64,000 nt of DNA from Chloranthus sessilifolius (lineage: Eukaryota > Streptophyta > Magnoliopsida > Chloranthales > Chloranthaceae): the NCBI GenBank assembly GCA_021018995.1, contig CM037584.1, forward strand, positions 145,965,317-146,029,316. The letters are read 5' to 3'. Below the pieces are notes generated by a model. It did no database searches. It saw only the letters and a list, made by a program, of their open reading frames with translations, and was not told the origin of the DNA. The position numbers and the translations under genes were made by a program. Below, in pieces: positions 4,684 to 36,179 of this stretch (position 1 is its first letter; each line of letters opens with the position of its first letter).

Positions 4684-4882
4684 GAATTCAAATTGTATTA
4701 CCGCAAGCATGTTTGTGGATTTTAACGACGCTTGTAATTCAATGGAAATTTTGATCAAAGTATGATAAGGAAACAACATTTTTATGCACACATGATCTTG
4801 AGGATGTGTTTTGTATCATAAATTACCAATGGAAATCAAGGAAACAAATCACTTTGAAAGTTTAAAGAACCTGATCAAAACC

Positions 4883-5560
4883 GATTAATCGAATTCCAAC
4901 TCGATTAATCGATTTGGAATTTCGATTAATCGATTTTGGTCAATTAGTCGACTGGCATGTGCCAGTGACTGGAAAGTTGAATGTGGATTCAGGAAATAAA
5001 AGAAAGGAAATTTCGATTAATCGATATAGATTTTGATTAATCGATTTTGGATTTCGATTAATCGATCTGGAGGTTCGACTAATCGAATAAACTTAAGAAA
5101 TTATGGAAAAACTTGAAGAATTTAGGTGATTTCGATTAATCGAAGAACAATTCGATTAATCGATTTGGAATTTCGATTAATCGAACTGGAAGTTCGATTA
5201 ATAGAATAACTTAAGGAAATTAGAAAATTTTGAAGTATAAAATACGATTTCGATTAATCGAAGTGAAATTCGATTACTCGATTTGGAAATTCGACTAATC
5301 GAACTGGAACTTCGATTAATCGAGTTACTTAAAGATGTTTGAAAAAAAAAAAAAATACTGAAGGGTTACACGATTTCAATTAATCGAAGCAAATCTCGAT
5401 TAATCGATTTTGTAATTTCAATTAATCGAACTGGATTTCGATTAATCGACTGGCTCCTACCAATGAGCTCAAAATTTGAAATTTTTAACTGCTACGATTT
5501 ATATATATAGGCTCCGACTCGATTAATCGACTTTGAATTTTGATTAATCGAATCGGAGCC
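4883..5560 (+). repeat. TTCGATTAATCGAA palindrome array, pol-ORF3 spacer of element A
   Basis: About twenty full or degenerate copies of a 14-bp perfect palindrome with core CGATTAATCG, irregularly spaced in AT-rich DNA with no ORF. Variants such as CGACTAATCGA and CGATTAGTCGA keep the symmetry. The array ends just before a TATA-like run and the ORF3 leader. The rest of the 4684-4882 gap holds nothing recognisable. Confidence 0.9.
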
Positions 5561-5575
5561 TATATATATAAATCG
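5495..5575. repeat. 34-bp inverted repeat enclosing two TATA runs
   Basis: The left arm (5495-5528) and right arm (5542-5575) are reverse complements with a single mismatch, separated by 13 bases. Each arm contains TATATATATA, GGCTCCGA or its complement, and one CGATTAATC palindrome half. Element B has only the right-hand version, so the left arm looks like an inverted duplication private to A. Confidence 0.85.
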
Positions 5576-5828
5576 AAGGAAATTTTTCCCCCATTCGAAA
5601 TCATTTGGGATTTTTCATTTTGCTCATCTTCTTCTCCTTCTTCTCCAACTGACCGAGCTACCAAGGGTTTGCGATTTCAGATCGTTTTTGGATCGGGATC
5701 GCATAGCATTGGATCAAAACCTAAGGTAAACCCTAGTTTTGTTACATTTGAGCCATTAAACCCTAGATTTGAGTTATTTTTCATCAATTCAAGCATATAA
5801 ACCCTAGTTGTTTAGATTTTCTCCAAAA
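5561..5828 (+). promoter_or_regulatory. Candidate internal promoter and leader of ORF3 (element A)
   Basis: A TATA-like run at 5561-5572 directly follows the palindrome array. It is followed by about 260 bases of leader rich in CT runs and AAACCCTAG repeats, up to the ORF3 ATG at 5829. The same order (array, TATA, leader, ATG) is seen in B and C on the minus strand, and in weaker form in F. Activity is inferred from position only. Confidence 0.5.
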
Positions 5829-7402
5829 ATGCCACCTAAAACCCGATTGTCTTCGGCAAAGGCGACCTCTAAACTCCCGGTCCGGCGTAAGAACGCTGCA
5901 CCGCCACCACCCACCCCATCACCCGTGAGGACTCGGTCACCATCAACATGACCACCTCCGGTTACAACGCGTCTTCAGCAGAGTCTTCTGTGAGTCCACA
6001 CATCATACCACCCACCAATGTAATGCTAATGATGAGTGGTGGGACCAGAAGCGATCGAGGTCAGTGACACATCGTCCCCAACCTATTACCTGCGTCCGAT
6101 ATGTGCCCGAGACCCAATGTGCTCGTAACTACCTTACCAATGCCAGTCTCGGCAATATCTTAAAGCCAATCTGGGGTTCCTACTACCCTAGATTAGTTCG
6201 ATTGTTTTACCAAGGGCTTGTGGACGGCCCGACTGACGACATGATCAAGACCACCATAGAGGGTCGGGAGTACATAATCACCCGTCACCACATACACGAG
6301 GTACTCGAGTGTTACCTCGATTTCACCCTAGAGACCACCCTCTTTCCACCCTTCGAGGAAGAGGTTAAATTTGAGGAGATCATGACCCGCATGACCAACG
6401 AGAAAAAGGGGTCGGGATCCTCCATCAAGAGGGTCGACCTTCCCCACTATATGTGGATGCTTGATTCAATAATCAAGTGCAACCTATATCCACTGCGCCA
6501 CAACACAGAGCACGTAGAGAAAGTGCAACAGGCACTTTACGCGGCATTTTATGGCCGGTGGTTTGACGCCACAATGCTCATCCTAGAGGGGATGAGATAC
6601 ATTAAGGGGAAGCTAATGAAGGGCAATCTAAGGCCCAAGGAGAAGATGTCGTATGCTCGGCTCATCTCGAGCATGTTGGAGTGTTACTCCAACGCTCCTG
6701 AGTATGCGGTATCGCCCCACGAGGTGAGGGGTACGGACCAGGTGAAGACGTTTTCAAGGTCTTCCTGGAGCCGTAGTTACAATTTGTTGAAGCGGACCCT
6801 ACCGGCTCCGGGTCTTGCACCAGCAGCAGCAGTAGCACCGCCACCACCCCCACCACCACAACAGGACCCACCTGAGGGTGGGGCACACCCGGTTGAGCCA
6901 CTAGTGGAGGGGGCGCCCTCCCATGCCACCGCTTCACCTACGCCGCCAACACAATCTGTCGTGACTACACCTACTTCTTCCTACCGCCGGCGAGCAGCTC
7001 GCCAGGCTCCGACGATCGAGGACGTCTTGGCCCGGATGGAGGCCAACAACGAGAGGATGAACCAGAGGATAACTTTCTGATGTTCCATACCCTCCACTAT
7101 ATCTACCCATCCGACTACCAGCGGTAACTCGCTCAGGAGGAGGAGTGGACCGCGGGACGGACCGCCTTCCACAGGGGTCCCGTCTTCCGTCCGACTACCG
7201 CGCCTACCGATGCTGGTACTTCCACTTCTACATCAGTTCCACCGGCCGAGACACTATAGCCACCAGAGGAGCCGTCGCTACCTCAGACCAGCCAGCCAGC
7301 TCCAACAGTCCAGTCAGCCCCCACACATCCGCCAGTCCACATAGAGCAGCCTGCTCTTACACCAGATCAGCCAGGCGAGGGGACGGCGTGAGGCCGAGAT
7401 AG
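5829..7402 (+). pseudogene. ORF3 of element A: putative plant transposon protein (Transposase_32-like), broken
   Basis: The start ATG (MPPKTRLSS) matches ORF3 of element B. The central region contains YYPRLVRLFYQGL, TTIEGREY, HIHEVLECYLDF, MWMLDSIIKCNLYPLRH and YARLISSMLECYS, which resemble from memory the family catalogued as putative plant transposon protein (Transposase_32); no search was run. A Pro-rich linker and an IEDVLARMEANNERMN coiled-coil-like segment follow. Its sense-strand position after the chromodomain is that of env-like genes in other plant gypsy elements, but no signal peptide or membrane segment is seen. Stops or frameshifts occur between about 5945 and 6110 and near 7078. 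The function is unknown; a DNA-binding role at the flanking palindromes is my inference. Confidence 0.75.
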
Positions 7403-7618: not shown

Positions 7619-7631
7619 AAGGTGGGGAGGA
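7619..7631 (+). other. Polypurine tract of element A
   Basis: AAGGTGGGGAGGA lies directly before the 3' LTR and would prime plus-strand synthesis. Upstream TCGGGGACAAAAATTCTC matches the conserved pre-PPT box (GAGGACGAAAATTC type) of B, C and F. The interval 7403-7618 has no ORF of note. Confidence 0.85.
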
Positions 7632-7838
7632 TGTAATAACCCGAAAAATTGCATTAAACGGTGACCTCGAGATCCATGCCCGACTGGTCATAGGTTTGAC
7701 TAAATAGGAGTCCATTAGTCAACTCGAGGAGTGATGAATGGATGTGATGAGAAATTTATGCAAGTATGTGGAGTGTAGGGAAGATCTAGAGTCACATACA
7801 CCTACCTAGGTGTATGTGCTTAACACGTAGAAAACAAG

Positions 7839-7846
7839 TATAAAAG
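7839..7846 (+). promoter_or_regulatory. LTR TATA box, element A
   Basis: TATAAAAG about 207 bases into the LTR, followed by AAGAACCCTAAC and a GA-rich leader. Related TATA motifs occupy the same place in the solo LTR at 32583 (GATATAAGG) and in the 5' LTR of B. Confidence 0.6.
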
Positions 7847-8223
7847 GGTTAAAGAACCCTAACTTACTCTTGTTTGGTTGTTAAAAGAGTTAAGAAGAGA
7901 GAGAGAGAGGGAGAGAGAAGTAAAGAGGGTTGCTAAGCAAGGAGTAAATGCAAGCCAAGGGAGATGGATTCGAGTATTAAAGTCGAATTCAACGCGGAAG
8001 ATCCTTTAGAGCTAAAGCTGGAACCCTAGCCATTCTAACTTTAAGATCCAATCAAATTGAGGCTTGATTGAGGTAAATTTTATGGGAATTAAATGGATAG
8101 ATTGTAGAAGTTTAAGTATGGTTAAGAATGCTTAAAAGCATAGGATAAAGGCTTAGAAAAAGAAAGAAAAATAGGTTGACAAAGATTTGGAAGATCAGCC
8201 CGAGAGGGGGCTGCATCTAACCA

Positions 8224-8692
8224 AATCGATTAATCAAAATTGGAGTTCGATTAATCGATTTGATCTGAGAAGTTAAAAAGTCATGGAATCCCGATTTCGA
8301 TTAATCAAAATGAATTTCGATTAATCGATTTGGAATTCGATTAGTCGATTTGGAAATCGACTAATCGACTGGGAAGCTCCAGCCACTGGAGAAATGAAAC
8401 CTGGGGAAATCGACTAATCGAATTGGGATTTCGATTAATCGATTTGGGATTTTGATTAATCGATTTGGGATCGATTAATCGATTTTGAGACCTCGACTAC
8501 TCGATTTAAGAATCGACTGCCTTATGTTGTAAACTCGATTAATCGATTTGGGATCGATTAATCGAATTTGAATCTCGATTAATCGATTTTGAGAATCGAT
8601 TAGTCAATTTGGGTTTCGATTAATCGATTTTGGAAATCGATTAATCGAATTGCATTTCGATTAATCGATTTTGGGAATCGATTAATCGACTT
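8224..8692 (+). repeat. TTCGATTAATCGAA palindrome array in LTR of element A
   Basis: By eye 19 full or degenerate copies, roughly a dozen with the exact core CGATTAATCG. Spacing is irregular, often about 20 bases. It is the same motif as in the pol-ORF3 spacer of A, and it lies inside the predicted leader intron. Confidence 0.92.
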
Positions 8693-9005
8693 TGACAGTT
8701 TTGCTTGACTTCTTAGTTTTGACTTTGAGATTCACGGAGGGTCTTGGACCTTCTTTATTACATCTTTAGTGATGAGTTACATGTGTTATGTTGTACCATA
8801 GGTGGTACGTGAGATCATTAGCACAAGGAGCCACGTGGGACCTTGTTGCTAGGAAATTCAGAGAATTGAGGTAGGGAACACCTTTAACATGTACTTTAAT
8901 TTTAAGAGCATGTATGTAGTGATATAATTATCTAATTAAAGCTGTTTTAAATGTGAAAAGCTTTATAAAAATGGGTGCGTGTGTGACACCAAAAATGTGA
9001 TAAGG

Positions 9006-9427
9006 GCATCTGTGTGATGCAAGTAACTAAGAACAAGTAATCAAATGAAATTGAGACATCCCCAGGAGATGAGAAAGTAATAAAGGCATCAGGTGTGATG
9101 CGGGTGTGTATACGTCCCAGGGATGTATACATAGGATTGAATAATTACTGTTGAGGCCTAACTGATATAAGATATCACACTTACACGGTGAACAACTATA
9201 TGTAATGCACATGATATTTTTATTATTTGAGGTTTGGAGGATACCCCACCGACGTGGCGGGATACCCACGACTGACGCGGCAGGATATCCGTGACCGGTA
9301 CGGCGGCGAATCCGTACACCATCACGGAGGTTTATCCGTGACCGTAAGGACATCCCAGGGATGTTCTGTAATATTTAACCCCGCCGCCTAGTGAGAAAGG
9401 GGCTTGGGTCGTATTCCCAGGGAATAC
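9006..9427 (+). repeat. Cluster of distinct short palindromes (TCCCAGGGA-centred) in LTR
   Basis: Successive inverted repeats: GCATCTGTGTGATGC (9006-9020), an imperfect CATCC...GATG (9057-9071), GCATCAGGTGTGATGC (9086-9101), GTATACGTCCCAGGGATGTATAC type (9108-9130), CATCCCAGGGATG (9351-9363) and GTATTCCCAGGGAATAC (9411-9427). Several share the centre but have different arms. Equivalents occur in C (19348-19705) and in the solo LTRs. RNA hairpins or protein sites are both possible. Confidence 0.7.
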
Positions 9428-9758
9428 ATGTTTTTACAACTGTCTAATTAGATGACGATGAAGGGTATCTCATCGGGGCTCGATGCTATATTGCTCGGGG
9501 ATTACTTAAGTTGAAGATTTAAGTTTTGCTTTAGGCCTGTTCAGTGTCATTCATGATTAAATCAACAGTAAAGTGATACATGCAACTTACCAGTGAATTG
9601 AGTATAAGACATCTGTTTTTAATTGGTTTTCTAGCAAATGCATAGATTCATCATGCTCTGAATATCATGGAATATATGTGAGTTTTAACTTATATGTTCA
9701 TTGTGCTTGTTCCCTATTGAGCTAGGATGTAGCTCACCCTTTTAGACTATACGTCGCA

Positions 9759-9863
9759 GGTCCTTTGATAGCAGCAGCTGAGGCTTCGGGGGGCGTAGAT
9801 CCGGGTGATTCGGATTTCGCGCCAGGAGACGAGTTGGAGCCTCCACCCGAGGACTTCTTCTAG
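9759..9863 (+). other. Conserved acidic tail frame in LTR of element A
   Basis: Reading from the last G of the predicted acceptor gives 34 codons and TAG, rich in Asp, Glu, Pro and Gly, with the DPGDSD motif and the ending EPPPEDFF. The frame has no ATG and would need an upstream exon ending in phase 1. The same frame is kept in solo LTR 1 (34667-34771), solo LTR 2 (36545-36649), the B 5' LTR (57076-57180) and the C 3' LTR (18922-19026), where only substitutions are seen. Confidence 0.6.
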
Positions 9864-10229
9864 GTGACTCTGCTGAGCACTTTGATAGAGAGTCAGTTTT
9901 GTGAGCAGAGTTGTGCGGCTTGGTATGTCAAGCCTTTATTTTGAAGCAATGTAATTAAACTAGATATTCTTTTGGCGAACCATCTGGGGTGATCTGTGTA
10001 TCATCGATGGTTCGGGTTGGTTCTCTATTCATGCAGTGGCATGAAGGTAGAACTGTCTTTTGAATATGCCAGTTGGGCATATTTACATTTTCTGCTTTAA
10101 ATGAAATTATTTGCTTTATTTATCATGTGGTGCTTGTTATACCAATGTTCCGTGTTATGTTTTGGGGCACGGTCTGGAGGATCGTGCTGATGGCACAGGT
10201 TTCAGGGTGCCGAGATCCGGGCTGTCACA

Positions 10230-12114
10230 GTCTATTGTGGTGATGTGGGACACTGGCCCTTGGTTGTGATTCCGCATGGGGTTGTTAACAATCTCGAGGT
10301 TTTGCAGTGGCTGGTTGTGAGAATTCCTGAGAGCCTCCCAATTGATCTGGTTTCTATCACTAATATCATAGATTACGTCCTAGAGAACCCAGCAGTCTTC
10401 CAAATTATGTCCTGCATATCGATGAAATGTGCAAAACTTCCAAATTATGTTCTGCATATCGATGAAATGCGCAAAACTTTCAAATTATGTCCTGCATATC
10501 GATGAAATGCGCAAAACTTCCAAATTATGGTCCAAATTTTTCAGTCATGGCCACGGTCGTTCTGATGGGAATCTAAGAAGGTTTTGGTTACTAAGGAGGC
10601 GGAAGATATTCGGGATAGTGTCGGGTAGCGGAGGGTAGTGCTCTCTTCTTGGCTGGTAGGGTCCTCTAGTTTGTTGATTAAAATTTTATGGAAGAGGTAC
10701 GTTATTATAATTCTAGGTGTTGATTAGCCTATTTCAAGTGGCATTCTGGTTCTGAGTAATATGATTAGGGTATTAGTTTCAGTTTTAGTGTTGGTTCTGA
10801 TTCTGATTGGGATACCGCTGCTGATTCTGATACTGATTCTAACCGAAATTCCTTGGCTAGTAGTTTCCATTGTCAGAGTTTTGACCCTGGTTGGTGACGG
10901 TATTGACTTGCTCTGAGTCAGAGGCTTTCTTATTGTTCTTCTACTTTGAATCACTGAAAGTAGCAGTCTTCAAGGTTACTATTGAAAAGGTGAGATCTCC
11001 TCCCTTTTATATGTTGTTGGATGCGGCTGGTGCGTGAGTGAAGAGTAGCGAAGTCCAAACAATCACTTATGACAAGAGCGCTTCGGAGAGGCTCTTTGAC
11101 ATTATTTACAATGATGCCAATCGCATCCTTCTCCTTCATCTGGCTTTCGGTGTGGGCAGCCAACTTTCTCAAGCGTGCTACGAAATCCGTGAAGTCTTCC
11201 TCGGATTCTTGCTTAGTTGTCATCAAATCACTGAGACTAATTGTTTCTTGTATCAGATGCTTATACTAGTCTAGGAATTGTCCGGCCAAATTATCGAACA
11301 TATCGATCTTGTGAAGTGGGAGTCCGACGAACCAGTTGAAAGCTTCTCCTTCTAGCGATCTCTGAAAATAATATATCAGGAGCCCTTGATTGTCGCGGAT
11401 GGGTCGACAGGCGTTGCAGAAAAGTGCCAAATGGTGGTTTGGGTTTCCCGCACCACTGTATTTGTTAAACTTGGGTGGTTTGAATCCTGCAGATAAGGTG
11501 AACTCCAGGTCTTGACATAACTTATCGAACTCGAATGAGTAACCATAGCGTTCTCTCTTAGCCATGTATTCGTCGAGCATTTTGGGGAAATCCTCTACTC
11601 TTATAGTGGCATTTTTTTGGGTAGCCCAGGGGTAAGTTTGGTCTTGGCGATTGTTGTTGGCGAGGGCACGAGCGGCCCAACATAATGGCGACATGTAGGC
11701 TGAGACTGTGCTTGGTGTGGGTGGTGATGCTTCTTGCCTTAGTTGTTCTTTCTCTTGTCTATCTTACAGCTCCTTAATGGTCTCGTATGCGGCTGCTAGG
11801 CCTCGGAGTAGTTCTTCGACGTCATCGCCTCCCTTCTGTAGCTTCTGGACACTGAGTTCCACAAGTTGTTGAGCTGTGAAATTTTGTCCGGTGTTGTCGT
11901 CTCTTCCATCGTGGTTATTGTTAGTGCTTGGAGGAGTGAATGGGTTTTCCTGATCACCTGTCATGTTAATCTCGGGGTTGTACTGAGCGGACTCGTTAGA
12001 CAGATCCTCGCAGTATACAGGGTTGCCATGGTAATTCCATAACGGAGGATCATTACAGTCAGTGAGATTTATTCTTCGTATTCCCGCCATCTTGAGCCTT
12101 TGATGAATGCTCAT
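10230..12114 (-). pseudogene. gag: gag of element D (Ogre/Tat-like Ty3/gypsy), interrupted
   Basis: Minus-strand Gag remnant with start ATG at 12114 (MSIHQRLKMAGIRRINL). Recognisable blocks are FEFDKLCQDLEFTLSAGFKP, FNKYSGAGNPNHHLALFCNA, YYFQRSLEGEAFNWFVGLP, EDFTDFVARLRKLA and, near 10400-10530, the Cys/His motif FCAFHRYAGHNLEDC. This arrangement, large and with a CxFHxxxGHxxEDC finger, is typical of Ogre/Tat Gag rather than chromovirus Gag. Frames break near 11760, 11265 and 10950, and a 40-bp tandem duplication disrupts the finger. Element A is inserted at 10229/10230, so the rest of D, including pol, should lie beyond A, left of the window. Confidence 0.82.
10397..10530 (-). repeat. 40-bp tandem repeat within gag finger of element D (3.35 units)
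   Basis: Units at 10397-10436, 10437-10476 and 10477-10516, plus a partial unit at 10517-10530; the copies differ at only a few positions. On the minus strand each unit encodes the FCAFHRYAGHNLE finger. As 40 is not a multiple of 3, each copy shifts the frame. Confidence 0.92.
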
Positions 12115-12242
12115 GCACGTTTTGGAAATCCTCGGTAGTCGAGTGGATGCAGGAAAGAAATAGAGCGGGAAAGAGAAATAAAAGCAAATTAACTAAACAG
12201 AGGAGACTTTGGCGACAAGAAATCTCATCGCGATCGCCAGTC
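12115..12242 (-). promoter_or_regulatory. Leader and candidate PBS of element D
   Basis: On the minus strand the LTR ends CCAACA and is followed after GA by CTGGCGATCGCG near 12229-12240, compatible with the TGGCGA-type tRNA-Arg primer sites of Ogre/Tat elements. A second CTGGCGATCGC occurs near 12388-12398, so the junction is not certain. The rest is gag leader. Confidence 0.45.
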
Positions 12243-13946
12243 TGTTGGAACCTTTTTCTGGGTTCCTTTCAGTCCCCGGAAAGAGTGGCTCAATTCGGTC
12301 TATGTGGACTCTGGCGGAAGGCGATTGATGGTAAGCTAAAAATATAGAAATAAAAGGTAAATTTTAAGAGGAAAATACCTGATTCGTTGCGATCGCCAGC
12401 TATAGATTTTTATGGACGCTGTAGCACATCACTGATCATGCCTTTTGGGGGTATGGGTTCGACTTCTTTACTGAATCGTCGGCTTGCCGACGTCAGCAGC
12501 ACTGGGTCACTTGGGTGTTTAGTTTATAATTTTCCTAATCCTGCTCTTAGCCTGATTATTTTAATTTTCCTAGTCCTACCGAGAGTATAATTATTCTAAA
12601 AGTTTTAATTATTCTAGAAGTTTAATTGAACTAGTCTCCTAATCCTACTAGGAGTTTGACTAAGTTAAGAGTCCTAATCTTATTAGAAGTCCAATTGATA
12701 TTAGTCTCCTAATTCTATTAAAAGTCTAGTTATTCTATGTATCCTGATTAACTCAAGTATCCTAACTCTATCAGAATACTAATTAATTTAGGTATCCTAA
12801 TTCTATTAAAACTCTAATTAATTTAAGTGTCCCAACTCTATTAGAATTCTAATTAATTTAAGTATCCTAATTCTATTAAAACTCTAATTAATTTAAGTGT
12901 CCTAACTCTATTAGAATTCTAATTAATTTAAGTATCTTAATTCCATTAGAACTCTAACTGACTTAGGTGTCCTAATTCTATTAAAAGTTTAATTATTTTA
13001 ACTGTCCTATTTTTACTAGAAGTCTAATTAACTTAAATGTTCTGATTCTATTAAAAGTCTAATTAACTTAGATATCCTAATTTTATTAGAAGTCTTATTA
13101 TTTTAAATATTCTATTTCTACTGGAAATCTAATTATTTTAGGTTTCCTACTTCTACTAAGAATCTAAAAAAAAGGGGGCGTTTGGGCCCACTATGCTAAG
13201 GAGGATCGGTCCCGTTCCCGGGTATCCTCCATAGGCTCCCTTGGGCAAATCAATTGGCTAAGGATCATTAAAAATAGTATTGATTGAGAAACTGGTTTTT
13301 GCATTGAAAAGTTGAGGTTTTGAGGATTAAAATTAAGGGGTTTTTATGAGAAAATTGTAAATTAAAAGATGTTAAGACTAGAATTTGAAAATAGAGGCTA
13401 CGATTTAGAATAATCAAAGATTGGGAACTGGTTCTAGAGATTAAGAATCAAAACCATAAATTTAAGGACTAAGATTAAGAACTGGTTCTAGAAGTTAAGA
13501 TCTAGAACCAGAGGTGAGAATATTACGTATTTGAATTTAAAGAGTAAGAATTAAAATTGAAGATATGAAAAATTGAAAGATTATGAATTGAAAGAGAAAA
13601 ACTAGGAATTAGGAAGAGAACTAAAACTAAAATCTAGAACAGAAATTTAAGGATCAAAGAAAAACTAAGAACTGGTTCTAGAAGCTAAGAACCATAGATT
13701 AAGAACTAGAATTAAAAACTAGAATTAAAGCCTAAAATCTAGACTAGAAATTAAAATCTAAGATCTATGCAATTAAGAACTAAAAATTAGAACTTAAGAA
13801 CTAGAACCTATAATTAGAAAAGGAAATTAAAAACTAGAGCTAAGAAGTTACCTAGGCGCCGGAGAGAATCTCGAAATCCCTAAGCTCGGAGGGAAGGAAT
13901 TCGAAAACTCGATTGCTTGATGTGTTGAAGTGTGGGATAGGGGGGT

Positions 13947-13956
13947 CTATTTATAG
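13947..13956 (-). promoter_or_regulatory. TATA box of element D LTR
   Basis: CTATAAATAG on the minus strand, a near-consensus plant TATA box, placed between the inverted-repeat cluster on its upstream side and the U5/gag on its downstream side. Confidence 0.65.
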
Positions 13957-13959
13957 ATA

Positions 13960-14420
13960 TTCAGGTAATTGCACGCCCTGTGGGATGCGCACAATTAGCC
14001 GGTCAAATCCGATTATGCGCCCTGTCTGGTGCGCTTAATCGGATTATGCGCCCTATCTCAGGCGCATAATCACTTTGAGTCGGTGACCGACTCAGTGAGT
14101 GACCAGCTGACTAGCTCAGTCCGGTGTCCAAGTTCTAATCAATTTAAAAATTATTGCGCGACTTGTTGGGATCATGCAATTCGATTAAGCGATAGCTCAG
14201 CTGCGCTTATTCTAGGAGGTCAAGGGAACTAGAGTCCAAGTCCAAAGTGGACCAATTACGCGTGGGTGGTGGGACGCGTAATCGATTGCGCGCCCTTTCC
14301 TAGGCGCGGAATCGGATCCTAAGGCAGACCGCGAGAAGAGTAGCCTGGTCTGAGCTAGACCAATTGCGTGCCATCTGTGTGGCACCCAATCAAATTGTGC
14401 GCACTATATAGGGCACGGAA
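13960..14420 (-). repeat. GCGC-type inverted-repeat cluster in U3 of element D
   Basis: Repeated imperfect palindromes with arms such as GATTATGCGCCC / GGCGCATAATC and AATTGCGCG / GCGCGGAATC. At least six copies are seen, immediately upstream of the TATA box, an enhancer-like position. The motif differs from all chromovirus palindromes in the window. Confidence 0.65.
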
Positions 14421-14634
14421 TTCGAGATTCTCCTCGGGCTAAATCGGGTTCGAATCATAATGCTATTATTTCAGCCTGTGCTTTGACTATATACTATTGT
14501 TTCAGTATATAGTCACCGTATTATAGTTTTAAAGCTTTCAGAGAAGGTAAGTCCCTTCCGAAAGTCATGGGTAAGGTCAAAGGTTGACCGAATAGGTTTG
14601 TATACTCTGAGAGGGTAAAATTGGAGTGTCTACA

Positions 14635-16846
14635 GCACCGACTCGCGGTGTGCCGCTCAACACCGAAATTGAACCCTAAGTCAAATTGATAGAATTTGGG
14701 GTAAATATCAAAGATTTTTGTTTTGGGATTTTTGGGTTATAAGAGAGAGGAGAGGGGTTGCTTCACGGGTAAGACATTGCTCGCTTGCAAACTTGGAGGG
14801 CTTGGAATTCTAGAAAGAGAAAGAAAAGAAAGCTTCCACCCTCTTCCTTGGATTTCAACCGTGTGATTGCCGCAATCTCTGCACGCTTTGCAAAATACTT
14901 GATCCCGAGCTTTGGGAGGATTGAAATCAATCTGTAATCGTGAACGATGTTGCCTTGTGCCTTGCTTTGATCAATCGTTGTGGATTTGCCGTAGAAATTT
15001 GGAAGTTTCGCTTCGGAACCCTCTTCGGCAACACTTATAATAAACCACGGATTCAATCGGTGAAAGGTATGATCGAGTTGATTTTAAATAATCTAAATGA
15101 TAGATGTGTTCCTTATATTGATTGTTATAAGTTTAGATGATTGTATGGGTGGAGTAGGAATCAAATTCGGTAAATTTTGTGGAGAAAACCCGAAAGGCAA
15201 AAGAATCTGAATAAATCGAATGTTCGAATTCTAAATCAAACGATCGAATTGTGAATCGACCGATCGATTTTGACAGAACAGAGGTGTGCCAGATTTCTGA
15301 AGAAATCAAACGTTCGAATTGGGAATCAAACATTCGAATCTGATATCGAACGATCGATTTTGGAATCAATTGATCGATTTTAGCATAGCCTGATGAGTGA
15401 AATTTCTGAGGAAATCGAACGTTCATATTTGAAACAAACATTCGAAATTGAAATCGATCGATCAAAAAACTCTGAGAAGCTTTGAGCTATTCTATTTTTG
15501 ACACTATTGACACATAGTACGATGTTAATGTGATCTAGGTTATGAACGAGAAGCTGTATGTGAGGACCATTGGATCGCTTTGAACGACTCTGAATCTGAG
15601 GTAGGGGAAACTCAATGAAAAATTACATTTTATGAATTTGGTTCATAGATTCCTTGATGTATGCTTTGTTTCCATTATGATATGTTTTGTTTTCGTCCTG
15701 TTTTCGCATATGATCTGATCGTTCTGTTTTTCCACTTTTGATCTTATTCGTTCCATTTAGTTATACTTTGAAGCCTATCGCACTGTGTTCTCATTACTAT
15801 TAAGACAATATTGAAAATGAATATGTAAAGAGCTTTTGTTTAGGATGAAGGTTATCCATAGACTTGAACACTACTTGATGAATTTTTGAGGACGAGGTGA
15901 AAGGTGAAAGAGTGGATGATTGGACCTATACTTCGGAAACGAGATGGACTTAGTGTTGAGTCATTACATTATGTATGAACCTTGAACTCCGTACTTGAAA
16001 GTGGATGTGAACACTGAGAAAATATTTTGAAAGATAAGACAGTGAGTGGACATAGGAAAGTGGACCGGTATGGCGGTTATCTGTACACAGTGTACAGTGC
16101 ATAGCATATATAGTGAGCCGGTACGACGGCTATCCATACGCATTGCATAGCATACATAGTGGACCAGTACGGCGGCTATCCATATGCATTGCATAGCATA
16201 CATACGTGATAATAGTGAGTGAGTGAAGTGAACACAGTCAGTGAAGTAAACATAGTGAGTGAGTGAAGTGAACACTGAAATCTGGGGTTTGAATTAGTGA
16301 ATTGAGTATAATGAATAAGAAATACGAGCTTTTGTTTCTGTTATCGAATATCTACTATGTTATCGCTTATGTTCTGTCGTTGAATATCTGATCTACTTTT
16401 GCTTTAAACTCTGTCATCAATAAGATGTAACTGCAATTGATATTCTTTTACTGAGCTTAGACTGTTAGCTCACCCCGACTATACGTCACAGGTGTAGTTC
16501 TTGATCGGGACCTTGGACTTGAGGGGAATCCAAGTTACCTACTGGAGGGAGAAGATCAATTGGATTGGGCACAGTGACTTCAGTAATTTGAGCTTGGTAC
16601 ATAATTGATATTCAGTCTTTATACCTGTTTGTGTACCACTATTTTGGATGATGGTCGGCCATCATCTGTGGTTTATTTTAATTCTTCCGGTTAATCGTCC
16701 GTACAGAAATGAAAGAATTAGTTACATCAAATATGCTATAACTGCTTTGATTTTCTGCAATATATGTGAAAGTACCAAGTAATTTCTATATTTAGATTGT
16801 GTTCTGCGATTTGGCGGCCTGGGTTTTCCCATTCGATTTGGTTAAA
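14635..16846 (+). repeat. LTR fragment G, chromovirus LTR of a further family (5' end missing)
   Basis: The sequence has the same internal order as the LTR of A: TATA-like GTTATAAGAG (14736-14745), a predicted donor GAAAG|GTATGA (15066/15067), a palindrome array, TTAGCTCACCCCGACTATACGTCACAG as conserved acceptor region (ending 16491), and a 28-codon acidic tail frame ending at 16577. The left end is cut at the boundary with D, suggesting that D inserted into its U3. No gag or pol of this family is visible. The right boundary is approximate. Confidence 0.65.
15205..15465 (+). repeat. Two-motif palindrome array in LTR G
   Basis: About ten sites of two kinds: TTCGAACGTTCGAA-like and AATCGATCGATT-like, in AT-rich DNA inside the predicted leader intron. 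This is the same position as the arrays in A, B and C but different sequences. Confidence 0.75.
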
Positions 16847-16864: not shown

Positions 16865-18469
16865 AGAAAATTAGGTTGGGAAAAATCCAGGCTTTCATAC
16901 TTGGAGACTCCAATCCTCCTTGCCCATATTTTGAAAATCAGAACACTTCGTATCGAAGTTCAAAGGTTCGGACATAATGATCGAAGACTCAATAATTTAA
17001 ATAGACATATAGATCAAGATTTGAAATGCAATTGCTCATGCTCATGTTCTAACAAATCAGTTAACAACCATTGAAAACTAATTCAAATATATAAATCTAT
17101 AGATTTTCTGAAACCACGGCTTAGGTAAAATATGAAAACATCATCAATGGTCATGAAACAGTATTAAAACATAATCTTGCAAATAGAATTTCCCTACCTC
17201 AGTTACGGAGGCGTGCTAACACAAAATGGAAATCGAAACGGAGATCCCTTCTATGGTTTCTCATACTCGACCTTGATCATGGTGGGTTCACAAAACACAC
17301 ATTAGTGGTAAAAGATTTCATGACCCGAGGCTCTCGTAGCCTTCCCATGTGCAGGGCATAGAGTAGTCATAGGCTGGCAGGGTCACCCGGTCGAGGTCCA
17401 GGGTCACCAGGGCGAGGCCTTCAGATTCTTTGGCGCACACACAGGTTTGCTCGGCGAGAGTTGCCCAAAAAATTTAGCCTGAAAACTCACCCGAGCGAGT
17501 TCCATTTCTTTGTATTCTGATGAAATCTTGCCCGGGCGAGTCTAACAATTTCAGAACTCGATCTGTCTTCTTCTTTGACTCCATGGTTTCAAAAAATTTC
17601 ATGTATTAGCCCTCAAATCACAAGCAATCTACACATAGTCTATTCCTAATTCATCCAACAGCAACTCTACCTCGAAGATTCACACATGCAAATCAATTCC
17701 ATGTAGAATTTTGAGATTCAGATATCAGAAACATCTTTATTTGCGTTTCTCATGCAGCTATTGTCCGAATCTTCGCATGCGATTTAATCATGCATGATTC
17801 TAAACCTAATTTATGAAATTAAGATGCGTAAGATAAGGCAAAAGCATTTACCTTCGTAGATTTCGCGCGCGCGAGACTCACAGAATTTGGTGTCGGAGAT
17901 CGGTGTTAGAATGCCATTTCTCTCGCGAGAGCTCAATTCTCACTTTTGATGGCGTTGTCGATCAGTGTTTCTTGTGATCGAAATCGTTGCGAAGTTTCTC
18001 GTGGAGAGAAAGAAAGTGAGATCAAGGATTTCTAATGGTTCCACTTCAAGGGAATTAAGAGAGCTCACGTCCTCTCGTGGATTCTTTCTTCTCAAACTCA
18101 AATGAAATGCATGCAAGGCTATGTGTGTGAATTAGCTTTTATAGTCATGAGTACAAATCTAGTGTGCAGCCTACACACCCAAGACTGTGTATGATCCATA
18201 TATATAATTTTCTTCTAAAATAAAATCAGAATAGGGAACTTAGCCCCCATTTGATCTCTAGACCTTTCACTTAACGACTCAAGTCTTTAATCGGGTGTTC
18301 TCACGGGGTCCACATAACTAATCATGTAATTTAATACGTATATTGTATTTCAAAGTGCTCCACACACTTTAATGATTGGTTTTAACATTTGAAGGCGCAG
18401 ATCGCCCTTGGCATTGGACACGTGTACATTGCATGACATACTCGGGCTCGGAATTTCTATGGTGTTACA
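16865..18469 (-). repeat. LTR fragment H, minus-strand chromovirus LTR (rearranged)
   Basis: The right end reads TGTAACACC on the minus strand. TATA-like TATAAAAG complements 18136-18143 and a donor AAG|GTAAAT lies at 17851/17852. TTCCCTACCTC at about 17190 matches the equivalent segment of the other LTRs. Palindromes are of CTCGCCCGGGCGAG type. The conserved acceptor and acidic tail were not found, so the 3' part is deleted or diverged. The left boundary is approximate. Confidence 0.5.
17370..17560 (-). repeat. CTCGCCCGGGCGAG-type palindromes in LTR H
   Basis: A handful of degenerate copies, such as CTCACCCGAGCGAG and CTTGCCCGGGCGAG, downstream of the predicted donor. The GC-rich motif differs from that of C at the central bases. 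Confidence 0.55.
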
Positions 18470-19989: not shown

Positions 19990-20275
19990 TATCAAAATCT
20001 GTGTGGTGCCTCACGCGAGTGAGCACAACTCCTCGCTCGAGCGGTCACTTGACCTCGCTCGAGCGGTCAATTGACCTCGCTCAAGCGGTTAAATCGAGAT
20101 CGCTCGAGCGGTTATAGCGAGCCATCTGAAGCTTTACTGGAGGCCTCGCTCGAGCGAGCTTCCCCTTTGTTTTGGGTCTCGCTCGGGCAAGCCCAAAACT
20201 AAATTTGTTTTCTCAGGTTTTATATCCTGTCCTCGCTCGAGCGAGCCAATTAGATCACTCGAGCGAGCCACGATG
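19990..20275 (-). repeat. CTCGCTCGAGCGAG palindrome array in 3' LTR of element C
   Basis: About ten copies of CTCGCTCGAGCGAG or the half-degenerate CTCGCTCGAGCGGT, inside the predicted leader intron. The array corresponds in position to the CGATTAATCG array of A and B. Confidence 0.92.
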
Positions 20276-21196: not shown

Positions 21197-22460
21197 CTAG
21201 TCATCATCCTCCTCATACTCGTCGTCGTCGTCGCCGAAGCCATCATCATCATCGTAGTCCTCGTCATCCTCATCCTCGTCAACCACCCTGGCGGTAGTGG
21301 TACCCCCCGTAGTGCTCCTGGTAGGTGGCCGAGCTAGACGCCCAAAAAATAGCGCTCTCATAGCACCGACGCTCCATGTAAGATGCAAGTAAGCATGCCC
21401 ATGAGATCTATGAGGAGTGCCTCCAAACCTCCTGTGCTCGATCTCGCCTCAAGGATCTCGCATCATGCGCAGTCGGTGGTAGGTATGTGAAGATGAAGTA
21501 GAGGAGCTTGGTCCACGGAGCTTGTTGCGTGGCTTGTCGGGAAATTTGGCGATCTCTTTTCTTGTTGACGCTAGTTTGAAGGCTCTTTAAGTTTCGGCTC
21601 CAGTCTTGGGCTAAATAGGAGAACACGTTATCGGTAAGAGATAACTCATCGGTTCGAATCTTGAATCCTCCTTTTCCATTTCGTGAGTTGAGGAGTCGGG
21701 AAATCAACCGAGCATAAGGTAGCCTATTGATGGGTGGAGGAATAGCACCTCTTACATTTCGTTTATAGGCATGCGCCATGCCCTTAATGACTACCATAGG
21801 CGCGCTAATCCACCTATTATGAAATGCGGCGTGTAAAGGCCGCAGAAATGCATCACGGCATTCTTGGTCATGGCCGGCCGGGTGTAAGTTCTTCTTAAAA
21901 ATGATATCCAAAAGCCACATGCGTGGCGGTAGCTGCGATCGGGTGATAGATTGACCCGAAGCGGACGTGCAGCCAGTGATATTGAAAATAATCGTTGGGA
22001 ATTCTACGTTCCCAGAAAAAGGTGGTTGTATGAGTGGGCTCGGGGCATAGGTGTGTGGGCAATTCATGACTGACGAAATCTTGACACAATTAAAAATTAA
22101 TTCCTTTCCTTCGATCGTGACGAGGATGGCGTCCTCATTCATGTTCATGTTAAGGGTTTGGTAAAATAGCTTCACGAGTCTCAGATAATACCGATCTCCG
22201 AAGGGGGTAAGTAATGATCTAAGGTTGTTGTTGGTGAGGAAATCCGATGTCCGTTGGGTAGACGTCGGATCCCCAAAACAAGAGGGATGTATATCCCATT
22301 CAGTTTCAAATATTTTGCCCCCCCACCAATCGTCTAGTGCGATTGGGGTAGGAGATGGGGTTGGTGGTGGTTGTGGAGCTTGCGGCGCTTTGTTGCACAC
22401 CGACGGCAATCGAATCGCCATCCTTTTCTTTGGTTGGGGATTTGGGCTTGAAGAAGCCAT
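21197..22460 (-). pseudogene. ORF3 of element C: divergent putative plant transposon protein
   Basis: Start MASSSPNPQPKK at 22460. Conserved with A, B and F are a WW..K.F/ME.EW segment (DDWWGGKIFETEWDI), YYLRLVKLFYQTL, VTIEGKELIF, MWLLDIIFKKNLHP and LPYARLISRLLN. Identity to B ORF3 is only about a third by eye, far below that of pol. The first 350 codons are open; a frameshift near 21400 separates the last part, whose final 25 residues are almost all Asp and Glu (ending DDDDEYEEDDD). No signal peptide or membrane helix is seen. It resembles Transposase_32 from memory. Cognate binding to the CTCGCTCGAGCGAG arrays is inferred, not shown. Confidence 0.75.
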
Positions 22461-22675: not shown

Positions 22676-22895
22676 CTCGCTCGAGCGGTCGCTAGACCTC
22701 GCTTGAGCGGTTAAAAGACCTCGCTCGAGCGGTTAAAAGATCTCGCTCGAGCAGTTAAAAAGGCCTCGCTCGAGCGGTTAAAAAGGCCTCGCTCGAGCGG
22801 TCACTAGCCCTCGCTCGAGCGGTCCAGAATGATTTGAAAGTATTATTTTATGTAGCTTCACGCGAGCGAGCATAAGTGTTCACTCGAGCGAGCCC
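22676..22895 (-). repeat. CTCGCTCGAGCGAG palindrome array, pol-ORF3 spacer of element C
   Basis: Seven copies of CTCGCTCGAGCGGT-type units at spacings near 20-25 bases and two degenerate CGAGCGAG copies. Same motif as in the LTRs of C and same genomic position as the array of A and B. The rest, 22896-23121, holds nothing recognisable. Confidence 0.92.
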
Positions 22896-28149: not shown

Positions 28150-30342
28150 TGTGACAGCCCAAATATCAGCACCCCGAAACCCGTGCCATCAGAATGACCC
28201 TCAAGGGCATGCCCTATAAATCTATACGAAGCATTAGTATGCACAAGCCAAAAACTACGATTAAGGCACATGTGTCTACTCTAACAAGTACTCATATAGG
28301 GTCTCTAAAGGCAGTTCTTGTCCCATGCCAATACATGGGCATAAGAACTTACCCAACCGTTGGTGATATCAGTTCATTCCAGACAGTTTGTCAAGAAAAT
28401 AACAGTATTTAATTACATTCAAAGAAAGAGGTTTGACATACCAAGCCGTACCTAATATTCTCAACTCACTCTCAAAGTATGCAATGGGTCTCCTAGAAGA
28501 ATTCCTCAGGAGGAGGCTCTGACTCCTCTGTGGGCACGAAATCTGAATCCCCTGGATCAAAGTCACCAGAAGTCTTCGTTGTCGCTAGTCCTGGACTTGC
28601 GACGTATATTCTAAGGGGTGAGCTACATCCTAGCTCCGTAGGAAAACAAAATGAACATATAGATTAACCTTCACATATATGTCAGCAGTTTTAAAAGCAT
28701 AAATTATCGGATAACACTTATGGAAAATAATTGAAATAACTGGAATAAAATAATGACTTCAACTGTTACTTTGCATGGTTTTATTTATTCTCCTTTCTAG
28801 TTTAGTTGTGAAATTGGCCTAATCACTTAAATCTTAACTTAAGTAGTCCCTGAGCAATATAGCATCGAGCCCCGATGGAATACCCACCATCATCGTCTAA
28901 CTAGACAGTTATTATGTGTACTCCCTGGGAATACAGCCCAAGCCCCTTTCTCGTAGGTGGCGAGATCTATTCTCAAATTTGCATCCCTGGGATGTGCTAT
29001 GAATATACGGATTGGCCGCCATACCGGTCACGGATATCCTGTCGAGTCAGTCGTGGGTATCCCGCCACGTCGGCGGGGTATTCTAGTCAAACCTTAAATA
29101 ATAAAAATATCGAACGTGCTGTACATATAGTTATTCACTGTGATTGTGCTAATTTTATTACATTAGGACTTATCACTTCACTTTCATTTGACTGTTAGTT
29201 TTCATCTGCATCCCTGGGATGCCACTGGTTCAATGTACCATCTAGATGTCCACTTTACAATTTTTACGTCCCCTGGGGACCTCATGACTATCACATTTGA
29301 AACTTACTCACATACCCTTTTTTCATAATGATCATGCAATACTTGCCTATTTAATTGAAATATACTACATATATGAGTTGACGAAATAATGCACATGTTT
29401 CAAGAATATTCCCTACCTCAACGCAATTCCAATGTACACTTTTCTCGTAGAGGTTTACACGCCACGATCTTGTGTCAACCTATATTTCATGTGTTTAGAA
29501 TATGTTTATAAAGGTCACTAGAATCATTGGAGCACATAGCCTCCATGTATTACACTAAACTATCAAAATCTATGTGGTGCCTCGCGCGAGCGAGCACAAC
29601 TCCTCGCTCGAGCGGTCACTAGACCTCGCTCGAGCGGTCACTTGACCTCGCTCGAGCGGTTAAATTGAGATCGCTCGAGTGGTTAAAGCGAGCCGTCTAA
29701 AGCTTTACTGGAGGCCTCGCTCGAGCGAGCTTCCCATTTGTTTTGGGTCTCGCTCGGGCGAGCCCAGAACTAAATTTTTTTTCTCAGGTTTTATATCCTG
29801 TCCTTGCTCGAGCGAGCCAATTAGACCACTCGAGCGAGCCACGATGGACGTAATTGTTGATCAGTTCGAAGACTATTTCCCTTCTTCGTCTAAAGTCTTA
29901 TTAGCATTAATTAACCTAAAAAATATTTCAGTTAATGCTTCCTACGTTATCTAATCACCCATATACGTATTTAAAAATCATACCTCGATCGATGTATTTG
30001 ATGTAAACGTGATCCAAGTTCTAACTAGATGAGAAACTCATCAAGGTTCCTCATCTAGCCCTCTTCCAATCTTCTATCGGCCTAGAACAACGAGTCTCTA
30101 TTCTCTTTTCTGATTCCCTCTCTTCTCTTTCTCTTTTCCTTCTCTCTATCTCGAGTTAATTAGGTCACGTATTGGGGAAACCCTTTCCCCCCTCATTCAC
30201 ATATATATAACTTAGTGAAAGTTAGTGTGTTTCATACACACACACAAAGTGTATACCTATTAGTTTTGGTTCCCTTGTGAACCACACATACCCGTGCATG
30301 GTTCATGACGTGTACGGTTCCCAAAAATCTGGGGTTATGACA
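28150..30342 (-). repeat. 5' LTR of element C (2193 bp), with palindrome array at about 29580-29845
   Basis: Same termini and content as the LTR at 18580-20767. It contains the CTCGCTCGAGCGAG array, TATA-like ATATATATAAC, and the acidic tail frame at 28493-28597. The predicted acceptor is mutated (CAA for CAG) and the GTATAAAAC TATA variant reads GTATGAAAC. Confidence 0.95.
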
Positions 30343-31002: not shown

Positions 31003-31727
31003 TGCTAGAAAAATGATTGGAAGATGGAAGCAAAAATGAAGGAGATGAAATCAAGGGTAGAATTTAGAGATACATTAAGATAAATGATTTCTCTAAATAT
31101 TATTAGTCTCCTTCCAGTTAAAATCGCGATAGCAAAAGAGGAGAATAGCAAACACGTTCCCGGGATACAATCAAGCCTAACCCTCTATAATTCCCTTTGT
31201 GTTTGCACTGACAAAAGAGAATTTTGAACACTACGTAATATACCCAAAAAAGAAAGAAATAAATTCTTATTTTCTTGTATCTTTCTAACAGAGATCTTAT
31301 CCCTATTTATAGAGAAAATTTTGAACCATTGTGTCTTTTCAGATTATGGTGAAAAGATTTCAGATCTGTGTCTTTTCACATAACGTAAAAAGATTATCGA
31401 TTTCACTTGTGTCTTTTCAGAGAGTTGTCTTTTCAGATAAAGATAAACTATAAGGCATCTTTTCATAAGAAAAGATAACCATTAAAACCCTTTTCATAAA
31501 ATTATCCGTTAAAGCATATTTTCATAGAAAAAGATACTAGCCGTTAAGACACCTTTTCGGAGAGAAAAATTCTTTAAAAATTGTCACGCTTATTTTTACC
31601 ACAAGAAAAGTGTATCTTGAAATAAATCAAGAAAGAAAGTTATTTAAAACTCTTTACAAAAAGAAAAAATATATCTTGAAATAAATAAATAAGGAAAGTT
31701 ATTTAAGACTCTTTAAAATATACAACA
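31003..31727 (-). repeat. 3' LTR of copia element (725 bp)
   Basis: TGCTAG at the left and ATACAACA at the right on the plus strand. Contains repeated CTTTTCA(T/G)A blocks. A GTGGGGGAT purine tract borders it on the internal side (31728 onwards). Confidence 0.92.
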
Positions 31728-32253
31728 ATCCCCCACTATTTTTAAAAGTTTTTAAAAAATAATATTTTTGGGCATAAGAAAATTATAATGCATAAATGAA
31801 AGTATCTAAAAGATTTGACCTTTCATTTAGTGTAAGTATATCAAAGTTTATCGAGCTGTTTAGTGACTTATAGTCTTGAACTAAGGACCTTATCCAACAA
31901 ACCGAATATACTACACATATTATAATTTATAAAACTTAGTGTTCTTAAAAAGCCATCACATTTATGGTCATGTGCTTTACCCCAATTTCTTGAGTGCTCT
32001 AGGAGAGTCTATTGCTCCATAGGAAGCGGCCCATCTTCCACACTCAAATAGATAAATCTATCAGAGTGGCTCCTGTATACAACTCCAACTTAAAATAAGG
32101 CTAAGATTCATTCAGAGAATCAATCTCATCCTCTCTCACAGAAATAATACTAGTTTGGTAGACATATGAGAATGAGTTATTTTTGAACATATAGTTCGTT
32201 CTAGTGACAGTATAATCACTCGTTCAATTTATTTTTCCCATTGAAGGTGACTT

Positions 32254-32577
32254 TTATTTTATAGATCTCAACCCCATTCCATTAGACATCTTATATAAGT
32301 ATTCTCTTACAAGGCCCTTCGTAAGAGAATCGGCTAAATTCTCTTTTGGCCTTACAGAATCTAAAGTCACTACTCTACCCTTGAGTAAACTTTTGACATA
32401 GTTATGTCTCAAACTTATATATCTATTTTTACCGTTATACATTTTATGATTTGCTTGTTTAAGAATCACTTCATTACCGCAGTATTTAGTAATTGCAGTG
32501 ATAGGTTTATCCCCTATAGGTACATCTACCAATAGATCTTTAAGTCATTTTACTTCTTTACATGTTGCATCAAGTGT
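32254..32577 (-). pseudogene. pol: Copia RNase H, C-terminal part
   Basis: Encodes the end of the copia polyprotein: EAEFITLDATCKE..., HKMYNGKNRYISLRHNYVKS and VRPKENLADSLTKGL, ending with stop at 32254. It is separated from the first part of RNase H (35141 onwards) by a solo LTR; the split falls within the EAEFI motif. The interval 31728-32253 is 3' untranslated DNA. Confidence 0.88.
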
Positions 32578-32582
32578 AATAA

Positions 32583-35135: not shown

Positions 35136-35140
35136 AATAA

Positions 35141-35760: not shown

Positions 35761-35943
35761 AAACCTACATGATTTGCTATGTTATGCATAACCAATAAAT
35801 ATGCATTTCACAGGTTTAGCCCCTAACTTAGGTCTCTTAATGTCGGAAATTCTCACATAAGCAAGACACCCCCAAACTTTAAAGTATCCTAAGTGAGGTT
35901 TATGATTGAACGAAAGTTCATCTAGGGTTATATTCTGATTTTT

Positions 35944-36179
35944 TTAAGGTACTCTATTCAATATATAACAAGATGTAAGTAAAGATTCACCCCCCCTATT
36001 CTTCGGTAAATCAGAATTTAACAACATAATAATTATCATATCGACAAGAATACGATTCTTCCTTTCTGTAATTCCGCTTTGCTGAGGTGTATAAGGGGCG
36101 GTAACTTGAAAGATAATACCATGAGATTCACAAAACTTATCAAAGTATTGTGATAAATATTCTCGACCTCTATTGCTCC
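35944..36179 (-). pseudogene. pol: Copia integrase core, second half
   Basis: RSNRGREYLSQYFDKFCESHGI carries the second catalytic Asp position as Asn (RSDRG to RSNRG), then APYTPQQSGITERKNRIL with the Glu. It is separated from the first half (38736 onwards) by solo LTR 2. A frameshift follows near 35945. Confidence 0.85.

Follow-up and report, generated by a model that had tools for sequence, protein, structure and literature searches.

Palindromic repeats have been described in the Sireviruses, Ty1/copia retrotransposons in which 13 elements carry a repeated motif (RM) in their LTRs; the nine with an env-like gene also carry palindromes before that gene, and internal copies are given as absent from the four RM-bearing elements without one (PMC2829016). 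The same account describes the motif as Sirevirus-specific relative to classic Ty1/copia elements. The VANDAL/VANC system of Mutator-like DNA transposons combines arrays of short motifs in non-coding parts, differing among related families, with an extra element gene, and VANC binding and demethylation have been shown by ChIP-seq, EMSA and bisulfite sequencing (PMC5735166, PMC10398659). In sunflower Athila elements, a sense open reading frame (aORF) between pol and the 3′ LTR has partial similarity to PF20167 and a product predicted to be nuclear (PMC11728184, PMC7264820), and Retand elements have an extra gene with possible DNA binding and family-specific repeats between pol and the 3′ LTR (PMC11963269).

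The chromoviruses analysed here resemble the Sireviruses in carrying family-specific, high-copy, CpG-rich and sometimes gapped palindromes both in the LTR and upstream of an extra gene, env-like in the Sireviruses (PMC2829016). The backbone here is Ty3/gypsy, however, the extra gene (ORF3) is PF20167-like and the half-site is T-Y-G-M, not CGG-CCG; the CGG-CCG core is absent from all five ORF3-linked motif classes, as it also is from the Sirevirus motif Tnd-1 (PMC2829016). Sirevirus LTR motifs are placed upstream of the TATA box (PMC2829016), whereas those of our elements A, C and F, in which a TATA-like box was found, lie downstream. As in VANDAL transposons, arrays of short family-specific motifs occupy non-coding regions, but the VANC motifs quoted are non-palindromic (PMC5735166) and VANC function is experimentally demonstrated, (PMC5735166, PMC10398659), whereas protein binding to the chromovirus arrays is predicted from sequence. 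The aORF, a sense frame like ORF3, belongs to the Athila lineage and not to chromoviruses, and the accounts consulted make no mention of palindrome arrays there (PMC11728184, PMC7264820); Retand, also a non-chromovirus, differs in its antisense TRP28 ORF and in that a matched LTR motif goes unreported in its description (PMC11963269). In the openly licensed literature we found no report of LTR and pre-gene palindromes in Ty3/gypsy chromoviruses, and among the matches listed for the motif letters all were unrelated by title. The overall plan, palindromes in the LTR and before an extra gene, is thus already known from Sireviruses; new relative to them are the superfamily, the family to which the extra gene belongs, the half-site and the proposed cassette exchange.

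Nested chromoviruses with matched palindrome arrays

The window, a stretch of 64,000 nucleotides of the Chloranthus sessilifolius genome (2.17 Gb, 32 contigs), sits on contig C1 and consists mostly of nested LTR retrotransposons. By sequence comparison, the pol genes of elements A (plus strand, 3′ part), B, C and F (all minus strand) are mutually related, and two solo LTRs group with A and B. Pfam was run on the pol of A and C. Element A has a chromodomain after its integrase, as chromoviruses do (Chromo, PF00385, E 1.4e-05, 25.3 bits against a cut-off of 25.1), and an SH3_Tf2-1 domain (E 2.8e-20), which with the relatedness of the four pol genes places the backbone outside Ty1/copia. Element C gave rve and SH3_Tf2-1 with no chromodomain listed, and its integrase is 86-88% identical to that of A. 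The first-pass annotation lists F among the elements; its array coordinates fit, but the part so named is only the 3′ portion of an element, with its pol at 62350-59257, separated from it by the insertion of B. Residues 1-352 of the C integrase align to 60391-59257 and residues ~341-401 to 47663-47481, with B between.

7631-10231, plus strand: element A 3′ LTR, about 2.6 kb
59257-62350, minus strand: F-element pol, split by the B insertion; its integrase end resumes at 47663-47481

Five-base target duplications flank element C (ATAAG) and solo LTR 2 (GTAAG). The 5′ LTR of B is whole, and its 3′ LTR (47655-48770) has suffered a deletion of ~1.4 kb that took the array and about 25 bp of the outer end. 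Both solo LTRs are enclosed by what is, judged by eye, probably a Ty1/copia-like element (31009-41170, minus strand) with ~740-bp repeats at 31009-31744 and 40456-41170 that are 85% identical, and a gag-like stretch near 39600.

We located palindrome arrays in the LTRs and in the spacers between the pol stop and ORF3 as follows.

4881-5551, plus strand: element A spacer array of TCGATTAATCGA, pol stop to ORF3; about 22 sites, groups at 20-21 bp
8226-8689, plus strand: element A LTR array of TCGATTAATCGA; 19 sites, with a donor-like AGGTAAAT about 155 bp earlier
33175-33598, plus strand: solo LTR 1 array of TCGATTAATCGA; 16-17 sites
37675-38140, minus strand: solo LTR 2 array of TCGATTAATCGA; 19 sites
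50832-51412, minus strand: element B spacer array of TCGATTAATCGA; about 20 sites
58250-58674, minus strand: element B 5′ LTR array of TCGATTAATCGA; 16-17 sites
22677-22891, minus strand: element C spacer array of (T/C)CGCTCGAGCGA; 9 sites, mostly 22-23 bp apart
29582-29837, minus strand: element C 5′ LTR array; 9 sites
20011-20266, minus strand: element C 3′ LTR array; 9 sites
46780-46852, minus strand: element F spacer array of TTGCCGCGGCAA; 3-4 sites
43280-43365, minus strand: element F LTR array of TTGCCGCGGCAA; 4 sites
15216-15465, plus strand: LTR G, TCGAACGTTCGA; 9 sites at up to 3 mismatches, ~20 bp apart, not above the largest shuffle
17383-17874, minus strand: LTR H, five loose TCGCCCGGGCGA matches, not above chance

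Counted on both strands with at most two mismatches, TTCGATTAATCGAA occurs 92 times in the window against a shuffle expectation of 0.70, CTCGCTCGAGCGAG 20 times against 0.04 and CTTGCCGCGGCAAG five times against 0.07. An unsupervised scan of every 12-bp palindrome, blind to the earlier motifs and with 20 shuffles per region, returned TCGATTAATCGA as the top word in the A LTR (19 sites), A spacer (22), B 5′ LTR (16-17), B spacer (20) and solo LTRs 1 (16-17) and 2 (19), regions in which the shuffle maximum for any palindrome was 4-6. Element C shows a single CTCG-type word in each LTR and in the spacer; which 12-mer comes top depends on the register, and TCGCTCGAGCGA scores 9, 8 and 9 across the three. 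The motif of F was hidden by TA microsatellites until these were masked, after which TTGCCGCGGCAA came top in the spacer (3-4 sites) and in the LTR, at 4 sites, tied for top with two others. Five of seven control regions had no palindrome clearly exceeding their shuffles; in the A pol control TA-rich words reached 8 sites against a shuffle maximum of 5, and in the control at 12000-14600 the commonest palindrome, TTAGAATTCTAA, reached 10 against 6. Degenerate tandem repeats lie at 12552-13167, and no ORF3 relative is close by.

A chance origin of the arrays is ruled out by the shuffle counts together with the blind scan. The first-pass annotation had placed arrays of one motif in both the LTR and the pre-ORF3 spacer of A, B, C and F; its coordinates agree with our site lists, and the blind scan returns the same pairing, for F after masking. 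Its palindromes in LTR G are suggestive, in that TCGAACGTTCGA has 7 sites against a shuffle mean of 3.5, although this stays below the shuffle maximum of 8. The motif type assigned to LTR H fell away: an array is not established there because the 5 sites only equal the shuffle maximum of 5. The motif length of 14 bp also needs revision, the well-defined core being 12 bp, and the motifs are not all perfect inverted repeats, since one class found outside the window (L017b) is gapped and most single copies are imperfect as 14-mers.

Matched arrays recur beyond the window

The AB 14-mer TTCGATTAATCGAA has 60,765 exact occurrences in the genome (2.17 Gb), against 5 for a reversed control. We analysed 31 further stretches: L001-L009 were picked by AB motif hits, so that the sample leans towards AB elements; L010-L029 were taken at even distances along C1; and L030-L031 were added as extensions of L017 and L026. 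ORF3 relatives were found by tblastn (E up to 1e-4) in L002, L004, L007, L017 (two, a and b), L018 and L028, and spacer sites are present in all 11 ORF3-bearing elements detected in the window and the 31 stretches.

In each of the nine ORF3 elements readable in both places (B through its 5′ LTR) the LTR and spacer words match, across five classes, weakly in L002 and post hoc in L017b; the proposal of one family-specific palindrome per family in both places therefore extends beyond the window on those terms. L007, whose stretch ends inside ORF3, and L017a, whose 3′ side is interrupted by element b, contribute spacers only, and for L002 and L028 the 'LTR' is the region up to about 3 kb past ORF3, with approximate borders. 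Among elements with an AB-like ORF3, L004 has 16 spacer sites of TCGATTAATCGA and 21 after ORF3 (tied with near variants), and L018 has 22 and 18; L028 has 6 spacer sites of TTGATCGATCAA and 14 after ORF3, with ties to same-core words. In all three the class word is top or tied top at both sites in the blind scan. The AB-type L007 has 18 spacer sites. L017a has 14, of a word that it has in common with L028; the C-terminal pieces of their ORF3s are 80% identical (69 aa) and the N-terminal pieces 40% (142 aligned), the latter barely exceeding the identity to AB-type L007 (37%).

The ORF3 of L002 is 45-53% identical to that of C, and a C-like word (majority TCGCTCGCGCGA) has few and imperfect sites at either position in L002; it is top in the spacer at 3 sites and has 3 sites after ORF3 versus 4 for another word. 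L017b at first appeared to be an ORF3 element free of arrays, a reading overturned by a gapped palindrome that was spotted by eye and then counted, post hoc: TCGANGGTCGA has two copies in the spacer and two in the 3′ LTR, and the 5′ LTR holds an exact copy and another with a single mismatch, the two LTRs being 98.9% identical over 1504 bp. Exact TCGANGGTCGA is confined to L017b across the window and L001-L029 (353 kb). We conclude that the matched palindrome arrays are real and recur beyond the window.

Other stretches add single observations. L019, with a chromovirus-like pol, has neither ORF3 nor an array of at least 5 sites; at a lower bar it has four AGCCCATGGGCT sites in a weak cluster at 6378-6521 of the reverse strand. 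L025 has a pol without ORF3 as well, in a stretch too short for a judgement. Arrays of TCAATCGATTGA, often in 22-bp steps, lie in L003 (6239-6567), L005 (8655-9301) and L027 (9044-9287), where no ORF3 relative was detected. Possible further array types, CTTTTCGCAAAG in L020 (9354-9550), CCTSTCGACAGG in L024 (241-882) and TTTCGGCCGAAA in L029 (578-1536), suggest additional motif classes in the genome. Two TTGATCGATCAA arrays ~7 kb apart (L026 7648-8100 and L031 4611-4986), where no ORF3 relative was found, possibly mark a non-autonomous element.

ORF3 and its promoter context

The gene downstream of the spacer array is present in all four elements, in varying states of preservation.

6064-7080, plus strand: element A ORF3 frame, weak PF20167 match; its 5′ part is in a different frame
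49525-50577, minus strand: element B ORF3, 350 aa, weak PF20167 match
21408-22460, minus strand: element C ORF3, 350 aa, weak PF20167 match
45260-46501, minus strand: element F ORF3 pieces, degenerate with stop codons, 29-35% identical to the C and B ORF3s
5561-5573, plus strand: putative ORF3 promoter of element A, a TATA box whose start is 9 bp past the final palindrome

Pfam matches to PF20167 (Transposase_32) were 1.8e-07 and 31.7 bits for A, 4.2e-08 and 33.7 bits for B, and 1.1e-05 and 25.9 bits for C, all under the curated cut-off of 45 bits; by the cut-off rule ORF3 is a distant PF20167 relative and not a member. Between A and B, ORF3 has a dN/dS of 0.13 (dS 0.97, 244 codons) and is therefore under purifying selection. 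Two AlphaFold runs gave pLDDT values of 37 and 42, too low for fold comparison. By eye, the protein begins with a Pro/Ser-rich part bearing basic patches and ends in a helix-like C-terminal segment, whose heptad periodicity reaches at most borderline significance (p 0.04-0.61 over six pieces). Homologue searches in a protein database, in the PDB by sequence and in IMG/VR and GTDB contigs returned nothing informative.

The spacer array usually ends just before a TATA box, which lies 8-9 bp past the last palindrome in the window (A 9, B 9, C 8) and 7-16 bp past the last spacer site in L002, L004, L007, L018 and L028. A TATA box at 7-16 bp thus follows the array in 8 of 11 elements, five of the eight AB-type, versus 3.7% at random points; in F (TATA at 38 bp), L017a and L017b none lies within 22 bp. 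In A, B, C and F a donor-like AGGTAAA comes next, ahead of where ORF3 begins, and outside the window such a site precedes ORF3 in L002, L007 and L017b but not in L004, L018, L017a or L028. Telobox words (AAACCCTA or its complement) lie between array and ORF3, three in A (5728-5806), three in B (50600-50716) and one in C.

The LTRs of A and B and the two solo LTRs have a donor-like AGGT at offset 431-446; its counterpart is at offset 354-357 in C and near position 15065 in G, and in all of these the array begins 143-155 bp further on. A TATA-like box upstream of the LTR array is present in A, C and F but not in B, the two solo LTRs or G, so the position of the array relative to the LTR start site is uncertain. 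The splice and transcription start positions in LTR and spacer are putative.

A shared half-site among ORF3-linked arrays

We propose, at a probability of roughly one half, that a dimeric protein with sequence-specific DNA binding docks on the arrays, the best candidate being the PF20167-like product of ORF3. Having no loop, a 12-bp palindrome would form an RNA hairpin only poorly and is thus most naturally read as DNA recognised by a dimer. The factor would have to serve the LTR and the ORF3 promoter alike, and ORF3 is the economical candidate because it is adjacent to the array, is passed on together with it and is under constraint. Counted against the docking proposal, inherited arrays would follow the ORF3 clade under any model.

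Five motif classes are linked to ORF3: TCGATTAATCGA, TCGCTCGAGCGA, TTGCCGCGGCAA, TTGATCGATCAA and the gapped TCGA-NGG-TCGA of L017b. The ungapped words (AB, C, F and L028) follow T-Y-G-M-NN/NN-K-C-R-A, and the outer half-site T-Y-G-M is kept in all five classes while the centre varies and the dyad symmetry stays. The agreement of the four ungapped classes is reached in 0.23% of within-half-site letter shuffles (p about 0.002), in a test on few classes whose 12-bp frame was chosen after looking. The words TCAATCGATTGA, CCTSTCGACAGG, CTTTTCGCAAAG and TTTCGGCCGAAA, from arrays without a linked ORF3, do not fit. A half-site common to all arrays is therefore broken by at least four classes, and in our sample the T-Y-G-M frame is confined to the ORF3-linked ones. 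Such a shared frame is what would be left by a single family of dimeric proteins whose contacts close to the dyad can change. The earlier view that positions are conserved while the sequence is replaced wholesale accordingly went too far: in this small sample the half-site persists through five classes, and the linkers of G resemble those of AB (a comparison using 24 nine-base AB linkers of 59). Linker similarity between C and F was not significant (55 of 300 shuffles, using 4 of 5 F linkers).

The half-site also bears on the proteins that might bind. Host transcription factors could occupy the arrays, each family having captured a high-affinity palindrome of a different host dimer that drives its LTR and its extra gene, with ORF3 serving another role, for example as an env-like or accessory protein. 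Comparison of the Sirevirus palindromes with PLACE mainly recovered stress-related host factor sites, according to that report (PMC2829016), and Pfam recognises no DNA-binding domain in ORF3, both of which would suit this account. We nevertheless consider it doubtful, since a T-Y-G-M common to all five ORF3-linked classes suggests one protein family and not unrelated factors, and since every ORF3 copy detected has spacer sites.

Spacing and constraint within the arrays

Sites recur at regular intervals. Of the 105 AB intervals shorter than 60 bp, 86 measure 18-22 bp; in C, 17 of 24 measure 22-23 bp, in F, 4 of 6 measure 22 bp, and in G, 6 of 7 measure 19-20 bp. These counts include stray sites (one in the A LTR, one in each C LTR and, at the end of the A and B spacer lists, sequences resembling a TATA box) that are excluded from the coordinates listed above. 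Spacing near two helical turns would be expected if proteins occupied one face of the DNA. The spacing pattern is nearly identical among the LTR arrays of A, B, solo LTR 1 and solo LTR 2, and likewise between the spacer arrays of A and B, but the two patterns are unlike each other; the LTR and spacer arrays were therefore inherited separately and yet share their word.

We then compared motif and linker conservation, setting motif columns on one AB-type LTR and measuring identity among the other three, in 12 comparisons that overlap and are not independent. Motif columns were identical at 2130 of 2302 positions (92.5%) and linkers at 2158 of 2774 (77.8%); without CpG columns, motif identity rose to 96.1% (1476 of 1536). 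The LTR copies are 80-89% identical downstream of the array and 67-76% upstream. Because motif columns outlast linkers, plain satellite drift is ruled out. Of 78 deviations from the AB motif, 39 are transitions at its two CpGs, the sort of mark that methylation decay leaves.

That mark would also be expected if host silencing were aimed at the palindromes or set off by them (as small-RNA hotspots or methylation nuclei); they might otherwise be insulators that do not serve the element, and LTR palindromes of three maize Copia (Sirevirus) families are reported as small-RNA mapping hotspots (PMC5311732). A pure liability would not, however, be expected to be kept better than its linkers, and we hold this account to be improbable. 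Still less probable is that tandem repeats spread between LTR and spacer by recombination or template switching and were homogenised without being binding sites, for although AB and C each have similar linkers in both places by eye, motif columns are far better kept than linkers, palindromic symmetry persists while the centre differs by class, and the TATA-adjacent position recurs.

Proposed exchange of an ORF3 cassette between pol backbones

The pol genes of A and C are 76-90% identical in 250-bp windows up to the stop codon. Beyond it identity is 0.37-0.57 until the LTR, where it reaches 0.65 and 0.85 past about 9.0 kb, and between the pol stop and this rise there is no blastn match. At fourfold sites of identical residues, A and C keep 141 of 239 in pol versus 9 of 32 in ORF3 (Fisher p 0.001), B and C 120 of 187 versus 8 of 40 (Fisher p 3.5e-07), and A and B 150 of 185 versus 45 of 79 (p 1e-04; dS 0.37-0.40 in pol versus 0.97 in ORF3). 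In F both genes are saturated (43 of 146 versus 8 of 31, p 0.83) and the contrast is invisible. ORF3 and the arrays thus diverge together, and pol does not.

The simplest reading is a joint exchange between backbones of three parts that adjoin in the RNA, namely the spacer array, ORF3 and the portion of the LTR that holds the array; an alternative reading is that pol was homogenised between families. Fast evolution in place was rejected as the main cause of the difference between AB and C: ORF3 synonymous sites are saturated and pol sites are not, so exchange of a cassette of ORF3 plus arrays explains the difference better. The binding factor had earlier been described as element-encoded or rapidly co-evolving. 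Between A and B, though, ORF3 is under ordinary purifying selection, as its dN/dS indicates, and the gap between AB and C fits cassette exchange better.

A possible address system and its implications

If the ORF3 product does dock on the arrays, each family would keep a variant of the site specific to it at two points of control, one within the LTR, ~0.5-0.6 kb from the LTR start in the AB and C types, and one upstream of ORF3, usually just before the TATA box. The ORF3 protein would recognise the promoter of its gene as well as the LTRs of its family and would activate them or shield them from silencing, and only elements carrying the matching address would profit. In this scheme we infer protein binding, the dimeric state, ORF3 as the binder and the activating or anti-silencing effect. 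An anti-silencing role like that of VANC is attractive because the arrays are non-coding and, in A and C, lie downstream of the likely LTR TATA box, where chromatin effects independent of position would make sense.

More tentatively, these parts may form a portable self-recognition cassette, in which a PF20167-like dimer reads TYGM-N(3-4)-KCRA through two arrays, at its own gene and in the LTR, and relieves silencing only at the matching address. Such a cassette would move between backbones with the palindrome centre as its changeable address, and would be an independently reached counterpart of VANC in LTR retrotransposons.

The role of extra genes in plant LTR retrotransposons is an old open question, and the matched arrays predict that each ORF3 protein reads the palindrome of its own family. 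If this is true, LTR retrotransposons would have an element-encoded, address-specific control like that of the VANDAL DNA transposons, PF20167-like proteins would be natural DNA readers of differing specificity, and the cassette reading might also explain the Sirevirus palindromes. In Chloranthus sessilifolius, the 60,765 exact TTCGATTAATCGAA sites suggest that such a factor could act at very many loci.
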